From Prevotellaceae bacterium (GTDB lineage Bacteria > Bacteroidota > Bacteroidia > Bacteroidales > UBA932), in contig JAISLK010000014.1 in the NCBI GenBank assembly GCA_031290935.1, positions 1 to 40,531 of the forward strand: a stretch of 40,531 bases of DNA, read 5' to 3'. A program made the position numbers and the translations under genes. A model generated the notes under the pieces. That model made no database searches, had not been told where the DNA came from, and saw nothing but the letters and a program-made list of their open reading frames with translations. Positions 1,006 to 40,531 of this stretch are shown here, piece after piece (within the stretch, counting starts at the first letter, position 1; each line of letters begins with the position of its first letter).

Positions 1006-2550
1006 ATGAACTTGGAGTATTTTTTATTGGTAGTTGCCGTATTACTCTTTCTGAGTATTATAGCCGGGAAAACCGGCTACCGGTTCGGCGTGCCGGTGCT
1101 GCTGCTGTTTCTGCTGATAGGCATGCTGGCCGGGTCGGACGGCTTCGGCGTAATCCGGCTGGATAATTTCCATGTGGCGCAAAATATCGGCGTCCTTGCG
1201 CTTATCTGTATCCTCTTTTCGGGCGGTATTGATACCAAATATACCGAAATCCGCCCGGTAGCCCGGCAGGGGATTGTGCTGGCCACGCTGGGGGTACTGC
1301 TGACGGCGCTAATTACCGGCGCGTTTATCTATTACCTGACAAACTGGTTTTTCCCTTCCGTTACCCTGACGTTCCTGGAATCGCTGCTGCTGGCATCCGT
1401 GATGTCTTCGACCGATTCGGCATCGGTATTTGCTGTCCTGCGGTCGCGCGGGCTGTTGCTGCGGCACCGCCTGCGCCCGCTGCTGGAGCTGGAAAGCGGG
1501 AGCAACGACCCGATGGCCTACATGCTCACGATTACCTTAATTTCGATTATCCGGCAACTGCAGGGCGCATCGGAAATGGCGGTGGCATGGGGCGGCGTGG
1601 CCGGGATGTTTATTGCGCAAGTGATTATCGGCGCAGGGCTGGGCTTTGCACTGGGGAAACTGGCCGTGCGGGTCATCAATAAAATCAATATCGACAATGA
1701 TTCCCTCTACCCGATACTGTTGCTGGCCTGTATGCTCTTTGTGTTCTCCGCGACCTATTTCCTGAAAGGCAACGGCTACCTGGCCGTATATATCGCAGGG
1801 CTGGTGATGGGCAACAGCAAGTTTGTACACAAACGCACTACCCTGAAATTCTTCGACGGGCTGGCATGGCTGTTCCAGATTCTGATGTTCCTTACGCTGG
1901 GGCTGCTGGTTAATCCGACGGAACTGCTGCCCATCGCGGGCATCGGGATACTGGTCGGCATATTTATGATTATCTTTTCCCGCCCGGCCGCCGTGCTCAT
2001 CAGCTTGCTGCCGTTCCGGAAAATGACTTTCAACGACCGGATATATGTATCGTGGATAGGCTTGCGGGGCGCGGTGCCCATTATCTTTGCCACCTATCCG
2101 ATGATTGCGGCGATACCCCATGCCCGGACGATGTTCAACATTGTATTCTTTATCACTATCCTTTCACTGATGGTGCAAGGCACCAGCGTGTCATGGTTTG
2201 CCCGCCTGCTGGGGCTGGCGCGACCGCACCGCCCGGACAGGAAAGTGCAGGACTTTGCCGTTGATTTTGCGGATGACATCAAATCATCAATGATGCAGAT
2301 TACCGTTACCGAAGCCATGCTCGCGGAAGGACACAAGCTGCTGAACCTGCCCCTGCACGACAAGGCGCTCGTCGTAATGGTGAAGCGCGACGAAAATTAC
2401 TTCATCCCCAAGGGGAATACGGAGCTCAAAGTAAACGACAAGCTGCTGCTGATTTGCGAAGACGATAAAGTATTGCGGGAAACCTCCGCCATGCTGGGGC
2501 TGGAAACGGCTACCCGGGTGGAGATAGAAGAAGACGACGGATATGTTTAA
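1006..2550 (+). CDS. cvrA: potassium/proton antiporter, CPA1 NhaP2/CvrA type
   Basis: Integral inner-membrane cation/H+ exchanger with about a dozen hydrophobic segments over residues 1-400 and a cytosolic C-terminal RCK_C/TrkA_C-type domain (about 430-505). That layout is typical of the NhaP2/CvrA subgroup of CPA1 antiporters. Conserved landmarks are STDSASVF (about 134-141) and the ESGSNDP motif (about 163-169) that carries the ion-binding acidic residue of the family. Length 514 is close to that of family members I know. The RCK_C domain suggests gating by a small ligand; the family exports K+ in exchange for H+. The ATG at 1006 follows a good promoter. A lipid kinase gene starts 18 bases after the stop, probably in the same transcript. 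K+ specificity is inferred from the subgroup. Confidence 0.88.
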   Translation: MNLEYFLLVVAVLLFLSIIAGKTGYRFGVPVLLLFLLIGMLAGSDGFGVIRLDNFHVAQNIGVLALICILFSGGIDTKYTEIRPVARQGIVLATLGVLLTALITGAFIYYLTNWFFPSVTLTFLESLLLASVMSSTDSASVFAVLRSRGLLLRHRLRPLLELESGSNDPMAYMLTITLISIIRQLQGASEMAVAWGGVAGMFIAQVIIGAGLGFALGKLAVRVINKINIDNDSLYPILLLACMLFVFSATYFLKGNGYLAVYIAGLVMGNSKFVHKRTTLKFFDGLAWLFQILMFLTLGLLVNPTELLPIAGIGILVGIFMIIFSRPAAVLISLLPFRKMTFNDRIYVSWIGLRGAVPIIFATYPMIAAIPHARTMFNIVFFITILSLMVQGTSVSWFARLLGLARPHRPDRKVQDFAVDFADDIKSSMMQITVTEAMLAEGHKLLNLPLHDKALVVMVKRDENYFIPKGNTELKVNDKLLLICEDDKVLRETSAMLGLETATRVEIEEDDGYV

Positions 2551-2568
2551 ACTATTCTTGTAACAATA

Positions 2569-3528
2569 ATGACAGGCGGAGAAAAAATAAAAGAAGCATG
2601 GATGGTCATCGTAAACCCGAAAGCCGGCAGCGGCAGGGGGCTTTCGGACTGGCCGGTTATTTCCAACCAGATGAACCGGCACGGGATTGAGTTCACCTGT
2701 GTTTTCACCGAACATAAATACCACGCGGTAGAACTGGCGGTGAAAGCCGTCAATGACGGCTACCGCAAGCTGGTGGCTATCGGCGGCGACGGAACTATCA
2801 ATGAAATCGTGAACGGTTTGTTCATCCAGCAGAAGGTAAAGCCGGCGGAGGTGTCGCTGGCCGTGATTCCCGCCGGCACGGGCAACGACTGGCTGCGCAT
2901 GTTCGGCATTCCCGGGACGTATTCCAAAGCGGTGCAGTCAATCGTCAACCACCGGACGATACTGCAGGATGTGGGGCTCGTTACTTTCCATGAAACGCGC
3001 ATCAGGCAGCAGCGCTATATGGCCAATGTGGCGGGGATGGGCTTTGACGCAATGGTCAACCGGCTCTTCAACCACCTGAAAGACGAAGGACGCTACAGCA
3101 AGAACATGTACCTCCGGGGAACATTCCGGACGTTGCTGTCTTACCATTCCAGGCAGTTCACCGTAACGGTAGACGGGCAGCTGCTGTTCAAAGGCCGCGT
3201 ATTTTCGGCCGCGGTAGGTATCGGGAAATACAATGGCGGCGGGCTGAACCAGATGCCCAACGCCGTAGTGGACGACGGGCTGTTTGATATTACGATTGTG
3301 AAACAGATGCACCCGCTGAAAGTGCTTTACCATTTCCGGAAACTGTATAACGGGAAAATCTACCGCATCCCAAAAGTCATTGCCTCCCAGGGGAAGCAGG
3401 TCGTTATTGACACCCTCCCGGCAAGCCCTGTCGAAATTGACGGTGAAGCCATGGGCTACGCGCCCTTTACTTTTGAACTGATTCCAAAAAGCATCCAGGT
3501 GGTCGTAGGGGAAGACTATTTGATGTGA
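2569..3528 (+). CDS. YegS/BmrU-type diacylglycerol/lipid kinase
   Basis: Soluble lipid kinase of the DAGK_cat family. NPKAGSGRG near residues 15-23 is the entry loop, GGDGT at 72-76 is the nucleotide-binding signature, PAGTGNDWLR at about 101-110 follows, and EIDGEAM near 290 matches the family's C-terminal conserved segment. At 319 residues it is a normal length. It would phosphorylate diacylglycerol or a related lipid at the inner membrane face; the exact substrate is not readable. The GGC-rich body is normal, but the last codons (TTG ATG TGA) are already part of a TGATGTGATGATG repeat, so the stop codon is supplied by repeat sequence. Co-transcribed with the upstream antiporter. Confidence 0.88.
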   Translation: MTGGEKIKEAWMVIVNPKAGSGRGLSDWPVISNQMNRHGIEFTCVFTEHKYHAVELAVKAVNDGYRKLVAIGGDGTINEIVNGLFIQQKVKPAEVSLAVIPAGTGNDWLRMFGIPGTYSKAVQSIVNHRTILQDVGLVTFHETRIRQQRYMANVAGMGFDAMVNRLFNHLKDEGRYSKNMYLRGTFRTLLSYHSRQFTVTVDGQLLFKGRVFSAAVGIGKYNGGGLNQMPNAVVDDGLFDITIVKQMHPLKVLYHFRKLYNGKIYRIPKVIASQGKQVVIDTLPASPVEIDGEAMGYAPFTFELIPKSIQVVVGEDYLM

Positions 3529-32132: not shown

Positions 32133-32200
32133 TTATGAATGATGAATTATGGGTGATGAATTATGGGTGATGGGTGATGTATTGCTGGCGCCGGCGGTTT
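32133..32200. repeat. AATTATGGGTGATG repeats plus GCTGGCGCCGGC palindrome
   Basis: Short direct repeats of AATTATG(G)GTGATGA followed by GCTGGCGCCGGCGG at 32184-32197. This is the same pairing of a GATGATG-type element with the GGCGCC palindrome seen near 3521-3650 and 9184-9446. Confidence 0.7.
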
Positions 32201-32228
32201 GTTTTTAGTTAATTTATTGTCTATTTTT

Positions 32229-32489
32229 CCTGCTCGCCGTTTAACCCTTCCTGCTCGCCGTTTAACCCTTCCTGCTCGCCGTTTAACCCTTCCTGCTCGC
32301 CGTTTAACCCTTCCCGCTCGCCGTTTAACCCTTCCCGCTCGCCGTTTAGCCCTTCCTGCTCGCCGTTTAGCCCTTCCTGCTCGCCGTTTAACCCTTCCTG
32401 CTCGCCGTTTAACCCTTCCTGCTCGCCGTTTAACCCTTTTTGCTGCCCGTTTAGCCTTTTTTGCTGCCCGTTTAGCCCTTTTTGCGTCA
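32229..32489. repeat. 21-bp tandem array (12 full units)
   Basis: Twelve 21-bp units of the form CCTGCTCGCCGTTTAACCCTT from 32229 to 32480, plus a partial one. The two at the right end use TTTGCTGCCCG. Frames stay open on both strands: one minus-strand frame (32221-32490) reads MTQKGLNGQQKRLNG then GLNGEQE heptads; another reads KRRAGRV heptads; the plus strand reads LPARRLT. The minus frame starting at 32490 has an ATG after a GGAAGGACAAAA tract and a stop just after the array. It is the best coding candidate, but three open frames argue that openness follows from the period. Confidence 0.93.
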
Positions 32490-32580
32490 TTTTTGTCCTT
32501 CCCGCCGTTAATTATGGGTGGTGATTTAAAGATTTCAGGCTGGCGCCAGCGCAATTAATCATATTAAATAATTAATTACG

Positions 32581-34501: not shown

Positions 34502-34684
34502 TTACTGCTTGTGCTTGGATTTTCCTCTTTTTTCATTTTTCTTGGGTGGTTTTTTGGGTGATTCGTGCAAATCGAATTTGTACAGAGACGCCAGAATCAT
34601 GACGCTTGGAAACACTAAAATAGCAATGACTGCCAACTGTAAACTGCTACTGCTACTCACGGCCTCCGCCGGCTGCACCCGCAA
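34502..34684 (-). CDS. possible small membrane protein, doubtful
   Basis: A 60-codon frame with one hydrophobic stretch (LQLAVIAILVFPSVMILASL) and a lysine-rich tail (ESPKKPPKKNEKRGKSKHKQ). This is a plausible single-span membrane protein. It ends just before the -7 box of the phosphatase gene. It overlaps, on the opposite strand, the lipoprotein-like start at 34626, and both cannot easily be real. I do not recognise a family. Confidence 0.25.
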   Translation of the reverse strand: MRVQPAEAVSSSSSLQLAVIAILVFPSVMILASLYKFDLHESPKKPPKKNEKRGKSKHKQ

Positions 34685-34851
34685 CGCTTACGGACAGGGA
34701 AACCGAAACCGGCCGGCGGCACACCGAGGCCGAAGTAACCATCCGCGAAACACCGCGCCGCGCCCGGTGGTGGGAAAAACTGTTTTTCTGGATTGGCGTA
34801 GCTGCTACCGCCGCCGCCGCACTATGGACTGTATATAAATTGAAAAAATAA
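34626..34851 (+). pseudogene. broken membrane/lipoprotein gene of the first cassette copy
   Basis: The 5' part reads MTANCKLLLLLTASAGCTRNAYGQ, which looks like a short lipoprotein signal with a lipobox-like cysteine. From about 34697 the meaningful frame is shifted by one: ETETGRRHTEAEVTIRE, then RRARWWEKLFFWIGVAATA and a final LKK before TAA at 34849-34851. That second part is nearly identical to the C-terminus of the intact protein at 35400-35867. The likeliest reading is a gene broken by deletion and frameshift at the edge of the duplication. Lipoprotein plus terminal membrane helix resembles small lysis-module proteins of Bacteroides phages, which is inference. The nuclease-like gene starts 3 bases after its stop. 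Confidence 0.55.
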
Positions 34852-34854
34852 CAC

Positions 34855-35229
34855 ATGAAACAACTTCCAAACAACTACACCAAAGTGGGACGGCTTTCCC
34901 AGCCGGTGGCAAAAGCCATTCGGCGCAAAGCCGCCAACATTTATATTGATGATAATCATTTGCGGCATATCTTTATCCAGCATCAGGAAGAATTGGCGGC
35001 AATTGGCTTTGATGCGCTGACCTTTGTGCAATTGGTTGTAAGCAATTACAACCGCATTTACAAAGGCGCCGGCGCTTCTTTATTACTGGTTATTTACAAC
35101 GGAAAGCCGAAAGTTACGGCCATTGAACTGAATTTGGTGTTAAAATACGGTTTTTATGAGGTGAAAACCGCGGCTATTGTACGGAAAACATTTTTGAAAG
35201 AAGAAAAACTGTTGTGGCCGGTTAAATAA
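34855..35229 (+). CDS. small phage-type nuclease-like protein (PBECR/BECR-fold candidate), intact copy
   Basis: 124 residues with no signal or membrane segment. The pattern IYIDDNHLRHIFIQHQEEL, then FVQLVVSNYNRIYKGAGASLLLV, VTAIELNLVLKYGFYEVKTA and a final EKLLW resembles the phage Barnase-EndoU-ColicinE5-RelE-like nuclease (PBECR) families: an early His-rich helix followed by a four-strand sheet. These families are usually RNases or toxin tips in prophages; I judge by likeness only. It starts 3 bases after the broken membrane gene, as in the second cassette. It is followed by a ~130-nt element with complementary ends. If it is a toxin, the immunity factor is not obvious. Confidence 0.6.
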   Translation: MKQLPNNYTKVGRLSQPVAKAIRRKAANIYIDDNHLRHIFIQHQEELAAIGFDALTFVQLVVSNYNRIYKGAGASLLLVIYNGKPKVTAIELNLVLKYGFYEVKTAAIVRKTFLKEEKLLWPVK

Positions 35230-35230
35230 A

Positions 35231-35362
35231 AAAAGGATTCACTTTTTGAGGTGCCCGCCGTTTCCCCGTACAGTATCCCACGCCCTGTACTTAATTACCT
35301 CCCAGCATCGGCGTTTACGTGGAGCCGTGAGGGCAGCGGTCTAATCAAAGTAAAACCCTTTT
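35231..35362. ncRNA. structured element, copy 1 (candidate noncoding RNA or leader)
   Basis: The ends are complementary: AAAAGGATTCACTTT (35231-35245) pairs with AAAGTAAAACCCTTTT (35347-35362). Inside is a hairpin GTACAG/CTGTAC (35268-35290) and further conserved islands (CGTGGA, AGCGGT). It is conserved with copy 2 at 36195-36324 in islands separated by variable loops. It lies between the nuclease-like gene and the gene at 35400. It could be a terminator-like tail, a leader of the next gene or an RNA in its own right; the type assigned here is tentative. Confidence 0.45.
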
Positions 35363-35399
35363 ATGAAACAAAGATACAAAAAATCAAAAATAAAATATT

Positions 35400-35867
35400 A
35401 TGGAAACTGAAACAATCCTAAAAATATGCTCTAACTGTTTTTACGCGAGACGTACTCCATGTTATTCACTTCCCGAATTTGAGTTATACGATTGTGAAAA
35501 ATTAAGAAACTATTTCGCTGTGCATATAAAAAGCAAACTTTGCGGTACATACGGCATCTGGTCAAAAGAATGTAACTTTTTTAAAGCGCTGCCACCCGAC
35601 AGCGACACCGTACGTCGGAACCTCGAATGCGACAGCCCCGAGCAGGTATTGTACCGGAAAATAGAAACCCTGAACAGGCAACTGATAGAAGCCCGCGCCG
35701 CCCTGGCCAATAAGGAAACCGAAACCGACCGCCGGCACACCGAGGCCGAAGTAACCATCCGCGAAGTGCCGCGCCGCGCCCGGTGGTGGGAAAAACTGTT
35801 TTTCTGGATTGGCGTAGCGGCAACCGCCGCCGGCACGCTATGGACTGTATATAACTTAAAAAAATAA
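35400..35867 (+). CDS. cysteine-rich protein with C-terminal membrane helix (intact cassette member)
   Basis: 155 residues in two parts. Residues 1-70 are rich in spaced cysteines (KICSNCFYARRTPC, YDCEKL, SKLCGTYGIWSKECNFF), suggesting a metal-binding or disulfide domain I do not recognise. Residues 75-125 are a charged coiled-coil-like helix (EQVLYRKIETLNRQLIEARA), and RRARWWEKLFFWIGVAATAA with the following TLWTVY forms one membrane helix. The C-terminal 50 residues are duplicated from the cassette upstream, so the gene may be a fusion of a Cys-rich head to a lysis-type tail. It is followed after 3 bases by the damaged nuclease copy. Confidence 0.65.
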   Translation: METETILKICSNCFYARRTPCYSLPEFELYDCEKLRNYFAVHIKSKLCGTYGIWSKECNFFKALPPDSDTVRRNLECDSPEQVLYRKIETLNRQLIEARAALANKETETDRRHTEAEVTIREVPRRARWWEKLFFWIGVAATAAGTLWTVYNLKK

Positions 35868-35870
35868 CAC

Positions 35871-36193
35871 ATGAAACAACTTCCAAACAACTACACCAAA
35901 GTGGGACGGCTTTCCCAGCCGGTGGCAAAAGCCATTCGGCGCAAAGCCGCCAACATTTATATTGATGATAACCATTTGCGACATATCTTTTTGCGGCACC
36001 AGGAAGAACTTGCGGCAATATTTACAAAGGCGCCGGCGCGTCTTTATTACTGGTTATCTACAACGGGAAGCCGAAAGTTACGGCCATTGAACTGAATTTG
36101 GTGTTAAAATACGGTTTTTATGAGGTAAAAACCGCGGCCATTGTACGGAAAACATTTTTGAAAGAAGAAAAATTGTTGTGGACGGGAAAATAA
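35871..36193 (+). pseudogene. nuclease-like gene, second copy, frameshifted by a 52-bp deletion
   Basis: The first 50 codons match the intact copy at 34855. Then 52 bases present in copy 1 (between GGCAAT and ATTTACAAAGG) are missing, which shifts the frame; translation ends at 36095. The rest of the gene survives in another frame (LLLVIYNGKPKVTAIELN onward) to the original stop at 36193. Very high nucleotide identity to copy 1 indicates a recent tandem duplication. Confidence 0.85.
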
Positions 36194-36194
36194 A

Positions 36195-36324
36195 AAAAGG
36201 GTTTACTTTTTAGAGGTGCCCTCAGTTCCTCGTACAGTAACCCACGCCCTGTACTTAATTACGTCCCTTTCAAATTTCACGTGGATTCGTCAGGGAAGCG
36301 GTATAATCAAAGTAAAACCCTTTT
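36195..36324. ncRNA. structured element, copy 2 (candidate noncoding RNA or leader)
   Basis: Second copy of the element at 35231-35362. Terminal arms AAAAGGGTTTACTTT (36195-36209) and AAAGTAAAACCCTTTT (36309-36324) pair over 15 bp with one bulge, better than in copy 1. The GTACAG/CTGTAC hairpin is at 36232-36254. It ends 66 bases before the replication protein gene. Confidence 0.45.
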
Positions 36325-36390
36325 ATGAGACAAAGATACAAATAAAAATAACAACCATATATAGATACTGACACTTCATACAATTAATCA

Positions 36391-39300
36391 ATGTATTTCG
36401 ACCTCAAAGAACTTTACGCAGCCGCCCGCGACGGACTGGCCATTTTTGAATATTATTTCCCGGAAGCTGCCGGAAAGCTGAGCGACCCGCGGTATAAATT
36501 CAAAATCCGGCCGGACGAAAAAACCGCGTCCGCAAAATTGAGCTACTACCAGAACCTCTGGCGCATTACCGACTTTGGCGACCAGTCGGCCGTTAACGGC
36601 CTGTCGCCGGTAGATTGGGTGATGCACCGCGAGGGGCTGCAGTATTACGACGCCCTTAAATTCATTTCCGAAGTCATTCTGCACCGCGCCCCGCGCGAGG
36701 GCTTCCGCGCCGCCGTCCGCAAAGCCGGATACCGTTTCCGCGAAATGACCGCCGAAGATAAACCCGGCGAATACCGTTTTACTTTTCGCAAAACCCCGCT
36801 CCCCGAAGAATTAAAAATTATCGGACGGTATGTAACGCCCGAGCTGCTGGCCGAATTTAACTGTCGCGTTGTGGAGCAATACGAATACTGCGGGCACAGC
36901 GACAAGATGAACCGGAACGTGGTGCATGTTTTTTCCGCCACGCCCGATTACCCGATTTACCTTTTTGATTATAAAACCTTCAAAAAGCTATACCGGCCTA
37001 TGGAAGTGGAAAAACGGTACCGGTTTATGTACATCGGCGAAAAACCGAAAAACTATGTCTTCGGGCTGGAGCAGTTGCTCAACACCGAATGCGAATTTAA
37101 CCGCGAAGACGATGACGAACTGGATTTGGTCATTGCCGGCGACGAAACAACGGCATCGAACGAGGACGACACCGGCGCCGACGAACCGAAGAAGGAAAAA
37201 CGGATTGTCAAAGACCTGTTCCGCTGCTCCGGCGAAACCGACGCCCTTAACCTCGCGTCATTGGGTTTCCACGTTTATTGGCTCAACAGCGAAAGCGCCA
37301 CGATGGACGCCGCCCAGTTCGCCGACATCGACCAGTATTGCGAAAACCATTACCAGATAATGGACTTGGACGCTACCGGGCAGCGCGAAGCCGAGCGGAA
37401 CGCCCTCCGCCACATCAACCTGTTCAATATCGCCCTGCCCGAATGGATTGCCGCCAGGAAAGACTGGCGCGGCAATGCCTGCAAAGATTTGAAGGATTTT
37501 ATCAACCTGTCGGGGAAAAATAAGGAAGAAACAACCTACGATTTCCGGGTGCTTAAAACCAACGCCCGGCGCGCCCGGTTCTGGTCGAAAACGAAGGACA
37601 AACAGGGCAAGCGGTCTTACAACTTTTCGATGGAAAATTTCTACTTTTTTTTGCGATTGAACGGGTTCTATAAAATCGCCAAATCTTACGTCCGCAAATC
37701 CGATTACATGTACATCAAGTTAAACGGGAAAGTGTTTCGCCTCATTGCGCCCGATAGAATCAAAAGCGAGGTCAAAGAGTTTACCAAACGCTGGATTGAA
37801 CGGAAAAAGATGATGAACATTTTGCCGCTGCTGGATAAAATCAACACATCCAACCAAATCACAGAGGCCAATATGGAAGGCCTGCCGGAAATAGACATCA
37901 ACTTCAGGAATGCCACCCGCAATGAAGAATACCTGCATTTTGCCAACGGCATGTCCATGAAGATAACGCCCGACGCTATCCGGATGGTACGGCAGGACGA
38001 TGTGCCGAACTACATCCTGGGCGAATTGCAGATGGGCAATAAAATCATTTCGCACATCCTCCCGCATTCCAATATTCGCGTACTGGATAAACCGCCCATT
38101 GAGGTCGCGCCCACGCCCGAATACCGGGCATTACTCGAACGCCGCGACAACGCCCCGACGATCGACGCCCGCGAGACCATCAACACCGAACTGGCCGGAT
38201 TTCCCGAAATTGACCGCTATACGGTTACGATTCACGATAATGATTTCTTTTTTGTACGGTTCCTGCGGGATATGTCGCGCCTGCACTGGCGCAAGGAACT
38301 CGAGCGCGGCGAATCCCTCACCGAAGATGAACGCAAAGAAGAGCAGCTCGTCCTGGCAAACCTGTTATTCGTGTACGGATACCTCTGTTCCGAATATAAA
38401 GATCCGGCCCGGGCCTGGGCAGTATTTACAATGGATTATAAAATATCGGAAGTCGGCATCAGCTCCGGGCGTTCCGGGAAGTCCGTAAAAACATGGGCTA
38501 CCCGCTATGTGCGCCCCACCTTCTGCGTGGGCGGCCGTACACTTAACGATGCCGACAAATTCAAATTCATCTATGACGGATACACAGAGTTCCATAATAA
38601 CATTGAAATAGATGATTTTTCCGAGTTCGGGCTTTTTGATTACTTCTATACCGAAATTACGGGTTTCCGGAAAATAAACCCTAAGAATTACAGCGCTTTT
38701 GACCTCGAATATAAGCACAGCGGCAAGATGAGTATATCCACCAACTTTGAGTTGAAGAACACCGATCCCTCGACCATTGCCCGTATCCTCTATGAAGTCG
38801 CCTCCGACTATTACCATGAGAAGACCGATAAAAACGACTACCTTGAAACCCGCAAACCCGACGATAAGTTTGGGAAAAAGCTGTACGATGATTTCACGCC
38901 CGACGAATGGCTGAAATTCTATAACCTGATAGCCCACTGTATCCAGCTGCCCATGCGGTTTTATAAAATCAACCCCCCGATGGGCAATATTGTGCGCCGG
39001 GAACTGCGCCGCGAAATGCAGGCGGGCATCGGCAAGACCGATGACTTTTTCAAGTGGGCCAACACCTATTTCCAGCCCCGCCCCGCGAACGCTACAGACA
39101 TTGCCCCCGCCATGGAGGGATGGTTTAACAGTTACATTGTCAAGGAATATGCCTACAAAAACTTTGTAGAGAACCTGTCAAGCAAGCAGCGGAACGACTT
39201 CCGCATTAACAGGTTCAAGGAACATATGGCGGCATGGTGCCGCTACTACGGGTACACCTTTAACCCGCCGGAAAAATTCACAGACCATCAGAATGAGCGT

Positions 39301-39417
39301 ATAATGAAGTATATAAATGCAGAATCAAAGTCTATGGAATGCCTGTACATTGCGACTCCCGGCGCCGATGGGACGCCCGCACCCCTGACCGTAGCGCCTG
39401 GCGACTTACCCTATTGA
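36391..39417 (+). CDS. mobile-element primase/helicase-like replication protein
   Basis: 1008 residues. The N-terminal ~110 residues resemble a CHC2-like primase head (FKIRPDEKTASAKLSYYQ, WRITDFGDQSAVNGLSPVDWV) but lack the zinc cysteines. A Toprim-like segment lies at about 270-365 (LFRCSGETDALNLASLGFHVYW, then YQIMDLDATGQREAE). The C-terminal part has a P-loop-like ISSGRSGKSVKTWATRY near 690, followed by DDFSEFGLFDYFYTEITGF and SISTNFELKNTD, resembling superfamily 3 helicases of phage/plasmid primases. I infer it starts replication of an integrative element, priming and unwinding at a nearby origin. AT-rich octamers lie just downstream. Confidence 0.7.
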   Translation: MYFDLKELYAAARDGLAIFEYYFPEAAGKLSDPRYKFKIRPDEKTASAKLSYYQNLWRITDFGDQSAVNGLSPVDWVMHREGLQYYDALKFISEVILHRAPREGFRAAVRKAGYRFREMTAEDKPGEYRFTFRKTPLPEELKIIGRYVTPELLAEFNCRVVEQYEYCGHSDKMNRNVVHVFSATPDYPIYLFDYKTFKKLYRPMEVEKRYRFMYIGEKPKNYVFGLEQLLNTECEFNREDDDELDLVIAGDETTASNEDDTGADEPKKEKRIVKDLFRCSGETDALNLASLGFHVYWLNSESATMDAAQFADIDQYCENHYQIMDLDATGQREAERNALRHINLFNIALPEWIAARKDWRGNACKDLKDFINLSGKNKEETTYDFRVLKTNARRARFWSKTKDKQGKRSYNFSMENFYFFLRLNGFYKIAKSYVRKSDYMYIKLNGKVFRLIAPDRIKSEVKEFTKRWIERKKMMNILPLLDKINTSNQITEANMEGLPEIDINFRNATRNEEYLHFANGMSMKITPDAIRMVRQDDVPNYILGELQMGNKIISHILPHSNIRVLDKPPIEVAPTPEYRALLERRDNAPTIDARETINTELAGFPEIDRYTVTIHDNDFFFVRFLRDMSRLHWRKELERGESLTEDERKEEQLVLANLLFVYGYLCSEYKDPARAWAVFTMDYKISEVGISSGRSGKSVKTWATRYVRPTFCVGGRTLNDADKFKFIYDGYTEFHNNIEIDDFSEFGLFDYFYTEITGFRKINPKNYSAFDLEYKHSGKMSISTNFELKNTDPSTIARILYEVASDYYHEKTDKNDYLETRKPDDKFGKKLYDDFTPDEWLKFYNLIAHCIQLPMRFYKINPPMGNIVRRELRREMQAGIGKTDDFFKWANTYFQPRPANATDIAPAMEGWFNSYIVKEYAYKNFVENLSSKQRNDFRINRFKEHMAAWCRYYGYTFNPPEKFTDHQNERIMKYINAESKSMECLYIATPGADGTPAPLTVAPGDLPY

Positions 39418-40231: not shown

Positions 40232-40283
40232 ATCAATGTACCAAAAGGCGGATAAACCCGCTTATATGTAACGGGCTTTTTTT
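40232..40283 (+). ncRNA. short leader RNA or small RNA ending at a T-run
   Basis: From the predicted start the RNA reaches a hairpin CCCG-c-TTA/TAA-CGGG (40257-40275) followed by C and seven T, an intrinsic terminator. An alternative stem AGGCGG/CCGCTT (40246-40263) shares the CCCGC bases and would block the terminator. This gives either a ~50-base small RNA or an attenuator for the gene at 40407. Confidence 0.45.
40257..40283 (+). terminator. intrinsic terminator or attenuator hairpin
   Basis: Seven paired bases with one bulged C, loop TATG, then CTTTTTTT. Confidence 0.55.
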
Positions 40284-40297
40284 ATGCCCTATAATAT

Positions 40298-40378
40298 AAC
40301 GGTTCTGTACCCCCGCGTGTAGTATGTAATATGCACACAGCCTTTTGGGCGTTGATCAGCGGGAAAGGCGGAACCGTT
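40298..40378. repeat. nested inverted repeats in the leader of the last gene
   Basis: AACGGTTC (40298-40305) pairs with GAACCGTT (40371-40378), which is followed by TTT. Inside, CCCGC (40312-40316) pairs with GCGGG (40359-40363) and GTGT with ACAC. GCCTTTTGG (40340-40348) is complementary to CCAAAAGGC upstream (40241-40249). Confidence 0.5.
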
Positions 40379-40406
40379 TTTATTCTGCCACAAAAAAATA
40401 TCTGTA

Positions 40407-40531
40407 ATGGTCAACACAGAAAACAATGCGAACAGCGCGAAGCACAGTAACGCAGTGAACACGGGAGCCCCCGACAGCGGCAAACTCACTATTATTAAAG
40501 ATTGGGAATCCATTGGATGGTTAGCCAATGG
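40407..40531 (+). CDS. hypothetical protein, 5' part, cut by window end
   Basis: ATG at 40407 opens a frame that runs to the last base (41 codons): a polar, Asn/Ser-rich N-terminus (MVNTENNANSAKHSNAVN) then GKLTIIKDWESIGWLAN. It lies downstream of a strong promoter and structured leader, in mobile-element context. No family recognised. Confidence 0.5.
   Translation, partial: MVNTENNANSAKHSNAVNTGAPDSGKLTIIKDWESIGWLAN

Follow-up and report, generated by a model that had tools for sequence, protein, structure and literature searches.

A putative structured RNA gene convergent with PBECR3-like nuclease genes in one bacterial order, a candidate RNA antitoxin

The RNA of type III toxin-antitoxin systems (ToxIN, CptIN, and TenpIN) is an upstream array of short repeats that is co-transcribed with the toxin, with a terminator between the two (PMC5086642). 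The pair described here, a PBECR3-like nuclease gene and an adjoining structured RNA, resembles these systems in combining a small candidate endoRNase with a predicted pseudoknotted RNA, in being carried both by phage-like elements and by chromosomes, and in the occasional tandem arrangement of its RNA units (as in genome G113). It differs in that the RNA lies downstream on the opposite strand, has a promoter box of its own, and is usually a single unit of 110-190 nt, and in that the protein is PBECR-like and gave no match to the ToxN/AbiQ/CptN family. In the AbiF-ncRNA system (RCd22/AbiF) of C. difficile, a phage-borne toxin is bound and neutralized by an adjacent structured ncRNA (PMC12373285). 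By analogy, this would be the likeliest functional parallel, although AbiF is a protein of the Abi_2/AbiD/F family and its RNA precedes the gene, so that protein family, RNA, and gene order all differ here; no Abi_2 match for the nuclease was found in Pfam or PADLOC. In type I systems, the toxin is a small hydrophobic peptide and the RNA is antisense to the toxin mRNA, whereas here the 124-aa protein is modeled as an alpha/beta fold, the RNA is not complementary to the start region of the gene, and overlap at the 3' end occurs in some subfamilies only.

PBECR domains (phage Barnase-EndoU-ColicinE5/D-RelE nucleases) have a predicted His...Thr active site, the layout of which is described in PMC5512222, and the proteins considered here, encoded by chromosomal as well as phage-borne genes, resemble a solo PBECR3 domain. 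Passages of that publication on these domains mention no RNA partner, and no description of such a partner for PBECR was found in searches of an open-access library. The module is best read as working most like a type III toxin-antitoxin or AbiF-ncRNA system, yet it would belong to neither, given the differences in toxin family, gene order, and transcription.

The window, the whole stretch of DNA that was analyzed, comprises 40,531 nucleotides from a Prevotellaceae bacterium (GenBank assembly GCA_031290935.1, contig JAISLK010000014.1). Two elements of ~130 nt are present at about 35230-35365 and 36192-36327 and share 84% identity across 151 bases. The complementary arms, GTACAG/CTGTAC hairpin, and variable loops that a sequence-only reading of this DNA had claimed for both copies were all confirmed (Table 1). 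Its statement that an element follows each nuclease-like gene held as regards position, but the second gene is a frameshifted remnant of 323 nt, as against 375 nt to the equivalent stop codon, with a 52-nt deletion near 36018 and a residual open reading frame of 74 aa. On the plus strand, the predicted fold of copy 2 was better than that of 200/200 shuffled sequences (z -3.05); that of copy 1 was modest (z -1.54). Gene and element were duplicated together in tandem (repeat families D1-D3), and no copies beyond these two were detected in the same genome. Given that both copies lie inside one tandem duplication, their similarity does not constitute independent evidence. The two copies prove little alone, and relatives were therefore gathered from the order.

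Table 1. Positions of the predicted RNA genes, nuclease genes, and associated features in the window
Feature	Coordinates	Strand	Basis
PBECR3-like RNase gene, intact, 124 aa; conserved His38/His43 and Thr105	34855..35229	+	Sequence, alignment; AlphaFold2 mean pLDDT 89.6
Predicted structured RNA gene, copy 1: P1-P2-P3-P4, kissing P2/P3 loops, 3' T-run; exact ends inferred	35228..35364	-	
TATCTTTG, Bacteroidota -7 type promoter box of RNA copy 1	35369..35376	-	Consensus from PMC7366714
P3 hairpin, copy 1 (GTACAG...CTGTAC); loop kisses P2 loop	35268..35290	-	
P2 loop, copy 1, CCACG (minus strand); pairs with P3-loop CGTGG at 35278-35282	35318..35322	-	
PBECR3-like gene, copy 2, pseudogene; frameshift via 52-nt deletion	35871..36193	+	
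Predicted structured RNA gene, copy 2, intact despite broken nuclease gene; exact ends inferred	36192..36327	-	
TATCTTTG, -7 type promoter box of RNA copy 2	36331..36338	-	
P3 hairpin, copy 2; loop kisses P2 loop	36232..36254	-	
P2 loop, copy 2, CCACG; pairs with P3-loop CGTGG at 36242-36246	36280..36284	-	
Tandem duplication, unit 1 and unit 2	34675..35398; 35691-36360		
Phage-type primase/TOPRIM gene of the host mobile element; context, outside the module	36391..39417	+	

The host element is phage-like, the next gene encoding a primase with relatives in IMG/VR contigs, Bacteroides phage BT-TP2, and Polaribacter phage Leef_1. Elsewhere in the window, another structured leader-like stretch was observed at 40240-40405 (CCCGCTTATATGTAACGGGCTTTTTTT and ACGGTTC...GGCGGAACCGTTTTT) ahead of an open reading frame starting near 40408; similar stretches with differing loops are present in loci L039 and L041. 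Short tandem repeats at 32147-32558 give rise to open reading frames on both strands (ARRLTLP and KRRAGRV repeats) and are probably non-coding repeat DNA.

Pfam family PF18812 (PBECR3) was matched by 10 of 12 members of the nuclease family (best 1.3e-6) and was the only recurrent Pfam family, the window protein itself scoring 15 bits, below the Pfam cut-off of 30 bits. No NCBIfam or PADLOC match and no relevant PDB sequence match was obtained. The AlphaFold2 model, although confident, returned nothing significant in a Foldseek search of the PDB, the most plausible matches being BrnT (probability 0.69, E 0.58) and HigB toxins. The invariant residues in the family alignment (A6) include two His residues in a helical region and a Thr near the C terminus, an arrangement consistent with the PBECR RNase active site as it is set out in PMC5512222. 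Family members are 120-150 aa in length, without an added RNA-binding domain.

Read on the minus strand, each P1 arm starts 6 nt past TATCTTTG, and a T-run stands at the end of the element. The sequence TAnnTTTG is the -7 consensus of the primary sigma factor of Bacteroidota (PMC7366714); no clear -33 promoter motif was seen. The two P1 differences between the window copies produce G-U wobbles on the minus strand and A-C mismatches on the plus strand. Counted on the minus strand, pairs in the ten sequences of subfamilies A and B comprised 360 Watson-Crick, 21 G-U, 4 A-C, and 2 other; the corresponding tallies were 205, 8, 0, and 4 for subfamily E and 241, 21, 6, and 13 for subfamily D, giving 50 G-U against 10 A-C overall. 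A covariance model of subfamily E (R3) likewise scored the sense strand at 149-170 bits versus 18-23 bits for the antisense strand. Given the -7 box, the T-run, and the G-U wobbles, the RNA is read head-on against the nuclease gene, in the direction of that gene's 3' end. Thus, on the evidence of sequence, each element is a small, free-standing minus-strand RNA gene convergent with a PBECR3-like nuclease gene, and the same three features argue against a plus-strand RNA. The sequence-only reading had offered three roles for the element. A tail RNA and a leader for the next gene are both disfavored by the opposite-strand reading, with its own promoter box, T-run, and wobble pairs, and the leader also by the related phage primase genes, near which neither the nuclease nor the element was found; an RNA partner of the nuclease is the option left standing.

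Protein searches of the family and order yielded relatives of the nuclease, two further Bacteroidales records (L048 and L049) coming from one genome scan; IMG/VR, phage, and plasmid collections yielded nothing useful among the close nuclease relatives sought. A third copy of the window unit, with the same neighbors and 94% identity, was found in genome G074, where the hairpin GTACA/TGTAC has become GTGCA/TGCAC. Downstream of related genes the layout repeats: an opposite-strand TAnnTTTG box, P1 within a few nucleotides, and a T-run or terminator hairpin. A simple score summing box, P1, and T-run (cut-off 20) was at least 20 at 13 of 17 PBECR loci of this type, which are partly paralogues and hence not all independent; of 211 other gene ends from this DNA, 1 scored as high. 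The loci reaching 20 were the two in the window, two in G074, three in G113, and G014, L048, L049, G581, G234, G415, and G279, with G415 and G279 just at the threshold and G415 left out of the 13 because its stem is doubtful; G021, G498, and G239 scored below 20. PBECR-like genes of another build (L032-L038, L062, and L067) were excluded from these counts. The same layout recurs in further relatives beyond the 17 scored loci, and every intact nuclease of this type among the loci examined had a convergent RNA unit, the one in G415, G498, and G021 being seen only as a promoter box and terminator-like hairpin of unproven structure. When 399 genomes of the family were searched with a model built from subfamily B (R1), RNA matches occurred only where the nuclease or a remnant also sits.

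Five RNA subfamilies (A-E) share the plan of a nuclease gene, a head-on RNA, the promoter box, and the terminal stem P1. On the minus strand, the common topology runs from the P1 5' arm through hairpins P2 and P3 to the P1 3' arm and T-run, with the P3 loop pairing to the P2 loop as a kissing pseudoknot; hairpin P4 is present in A and B, and some D members have a separate terminator hairpin after the element. The kissing hairpins, examined in four of the five subfamilies, pair as CCACG/CGTGG in A; CTGCG/CGCAG, CTACG/CGTAG, and TTACG/CGTAA in B; CTTGC/GCAAG and CTCGC/GCGAG in D; and CCGCCG/CGGCGG and TCGCCG/CGGCGA in E. In subfamily C (L048 and L049; n = 2), P1 is long and a hairpin loop is complementary to a downstream CGTCG.

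Paired cells amounted to 98.1% in B (7 sequences), 98.2% in E (7 sequences), and 93.2% in D (13 sequences) and dropped to 6-54% in slid controls, although percent paired is favored by construction because the structures were drawn on the sequences that were scored. Double changes were found in 7 pairs/13 cells, 7 pairs/8 cells, and 10 pairs/20 cells for B, E, and D, respectively (0/500 shuffles in each case), and together with the covariation score they lay far above both the shuffled and the slid controls. The proposal that a functional, structured RNA is linked with the nuclease thus gains strong support, in that covariation and copies beside related genes were both found. Model R3, built from E without G234, located the G234 RNA at the predicted place and strand (E 1.2e-6). 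Model R1 matched G239 weakly, downstream of the gene and on the opposite strand, where a distinct kissing pair (CAACG/CGTTG) is present; its matches in phage contigs L023 and L024 were mispaired and attributed to chance. Given that the model of D (R2) did not reach the window copies, the subfamilies are joined by topology and gene context rather than by demonstrated homology of RNA sequence. Across these RNAs the sequence is almost wholly turned over, and topology, position, and promoter box are kept. No match at the Rfam gathering score was obtained in the window, and the best sub-threshold matches for window and relatives were unrelated, RAGATH-17 and sRNA41 being rejected as chance.

Several loci show departures from the simple pair. 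In G113 (contig C15; L040 1833-2398), three tandem RNA units, each with a promoter box and T-run and the third divergent, follow one nuclease gene. In L014, two more tandem PBECR-like open reading frames (YGLKHIYEKHGHEIKELGF...) follow the nuclease-RNA pair at 2022-3085, and L074 has a further PBECR-like gene of another sort (92-517) close to a D-type pair, adjoining genes that resemble those for single-strand-binding proteins.

In about 16 cases, among them window copy 2, the RNA persists although its nuclease is broken or missing. It stands beside a frameshifted nuclease in G074:C37, G239, and G997, a C-terminal remnant in G014, and a broken nuclease in G299:C14 and G1034; extra RNA units occur in G113, and orphan RNAs with a promoter box in G1023 (two), G1031, G299:C10, and G1011:C10. 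At L110 (G1022:C6:104600-107600), one RNA of the D type and one of the E type adjoin each other close to an intact nuclease-RNA pair; with a nuclease remnant and the intact D-type nuclease alongside, the locus resembles a small array of different RNA specificities. Loss of a toxin with retention of its antidote is the pattern that a toxin-antitoxin pair would be expected to leave; orphan RNAs would also be expected if the RNA had its own job or the gene merely decayed faster.

Given that the P1 3' arm overlaps the codons for a C-terminal KLLW in several subfamilies, antisense control is the main rival to an RNA antitoxin. A type I-like RNA of this kind would pair with the nuclease mRNA at the 3' end, thereby blocking or destabilizing that mRNA, and the fold of the RNA would serve for stability. 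In B, E, G581, and G234, the arm lies inside the KLLW codons, so that the transcripts overlap, but it lies past the stop codon in subfamilies C and D and in the window. Extra complementarity to the nuclease start region was not detected (mean z -0.17, 20 loci), a perfect antisense RNA has no need of conserved kissing pseudoknots, and orphan RNAs persist without any target gene; we consider antisense control unlikely. It is rather doubtful that the nuclease acts as a ribonucleoprotein in which the RNA directs or switches cleavage. The tight linkage of RNA and nuclease, the tracking of protein subfamilies by RNA subfamilies, and the presence of several RNA units beside one nuclease would suit such a partner, but the protein, at 120-150 aa, is small and lacks an additional RNA-binding domain, a variable guide segment was not recognized, and intact RNAs without a nuclease would have no use.

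Retention of promoter box and fold in orphan RNAs would also fit an RNA with its own function in trans (e.g. a regulator or anti-phage decoy) for which the nuclease is the processing enzyme. This is quite improbable, given that no processing site is visible and that the family genomes searched contain the RNA solely at sites of the nuclease or its remnant. As for a DNA element, an integron attC-like recombination site, transposon end, or MITE might be suspected from an imperfect ~130-bp palindrome after a single gene, from the tandem copies, and from the pairs at unrelated chromosomal sites. Such an origin has a negligible probability: the genome itself has just two copies, family genomes have none apart from those beside this nuclease family, the arms carry no attC core sites (RYYYAAC/GTTRRRY), their ends reading AAGGGTTTACTTT / AAAGTAAAACCC by eye, and the promoter box, T-run, and strand-specific wobble pairs are conserved. 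MITE and attC identities were rejected on copy number, core sites, and restriction to this nuclease family.

The preservation of the fold by matching mutations across one bacterial order suggests an RNA antidote or other RNA partner of the enzyme. The nuclease and its convergent RNA probably constitute an RNase toxin and RNA antitoxin, a reading that draws on the gene pair, its head-on orientation, the promoter box, the P1 3' arm followed by a T-run, the kissing hairpins, and the order-wide conservation of this layout. Here, the RNA would be transcribed steadily, fold into a compact kissing-loop structure, bind the RNase, and keep it inactive. Were RNA synthesis to stop, for example when a phage takes over or the mobile element is lost, the nuclease, as the more stable partner, would be released to cut RNA, and spare RNA copies without a nuclease could act as anti-addiction antidotes.

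The pairing suggests a further protein-RNA toxin-antitoxin class in which the toxin family and gene order are unlike those of ToxIN and AbiF. More tentatively, it may represent a further type of RNA antitoxin, in which a kissing-loop RNA, convergent and equipped with a promoter of its own, restrains BECR-type RNases, and orphan RNAs and small arrays serve as antidotes against incoming nuclease-bearing elements. The RNAs form a previously undescribed set outside Rfam, and some of the D or E RNAs could figure among the unnamed candidates of PMC8040213. For the control and targets of PBECR domains, which are common in the conflict proteins of phages and plasmids, a covarying RNA gene paired with solo PBECR genes would provide a direct handle.
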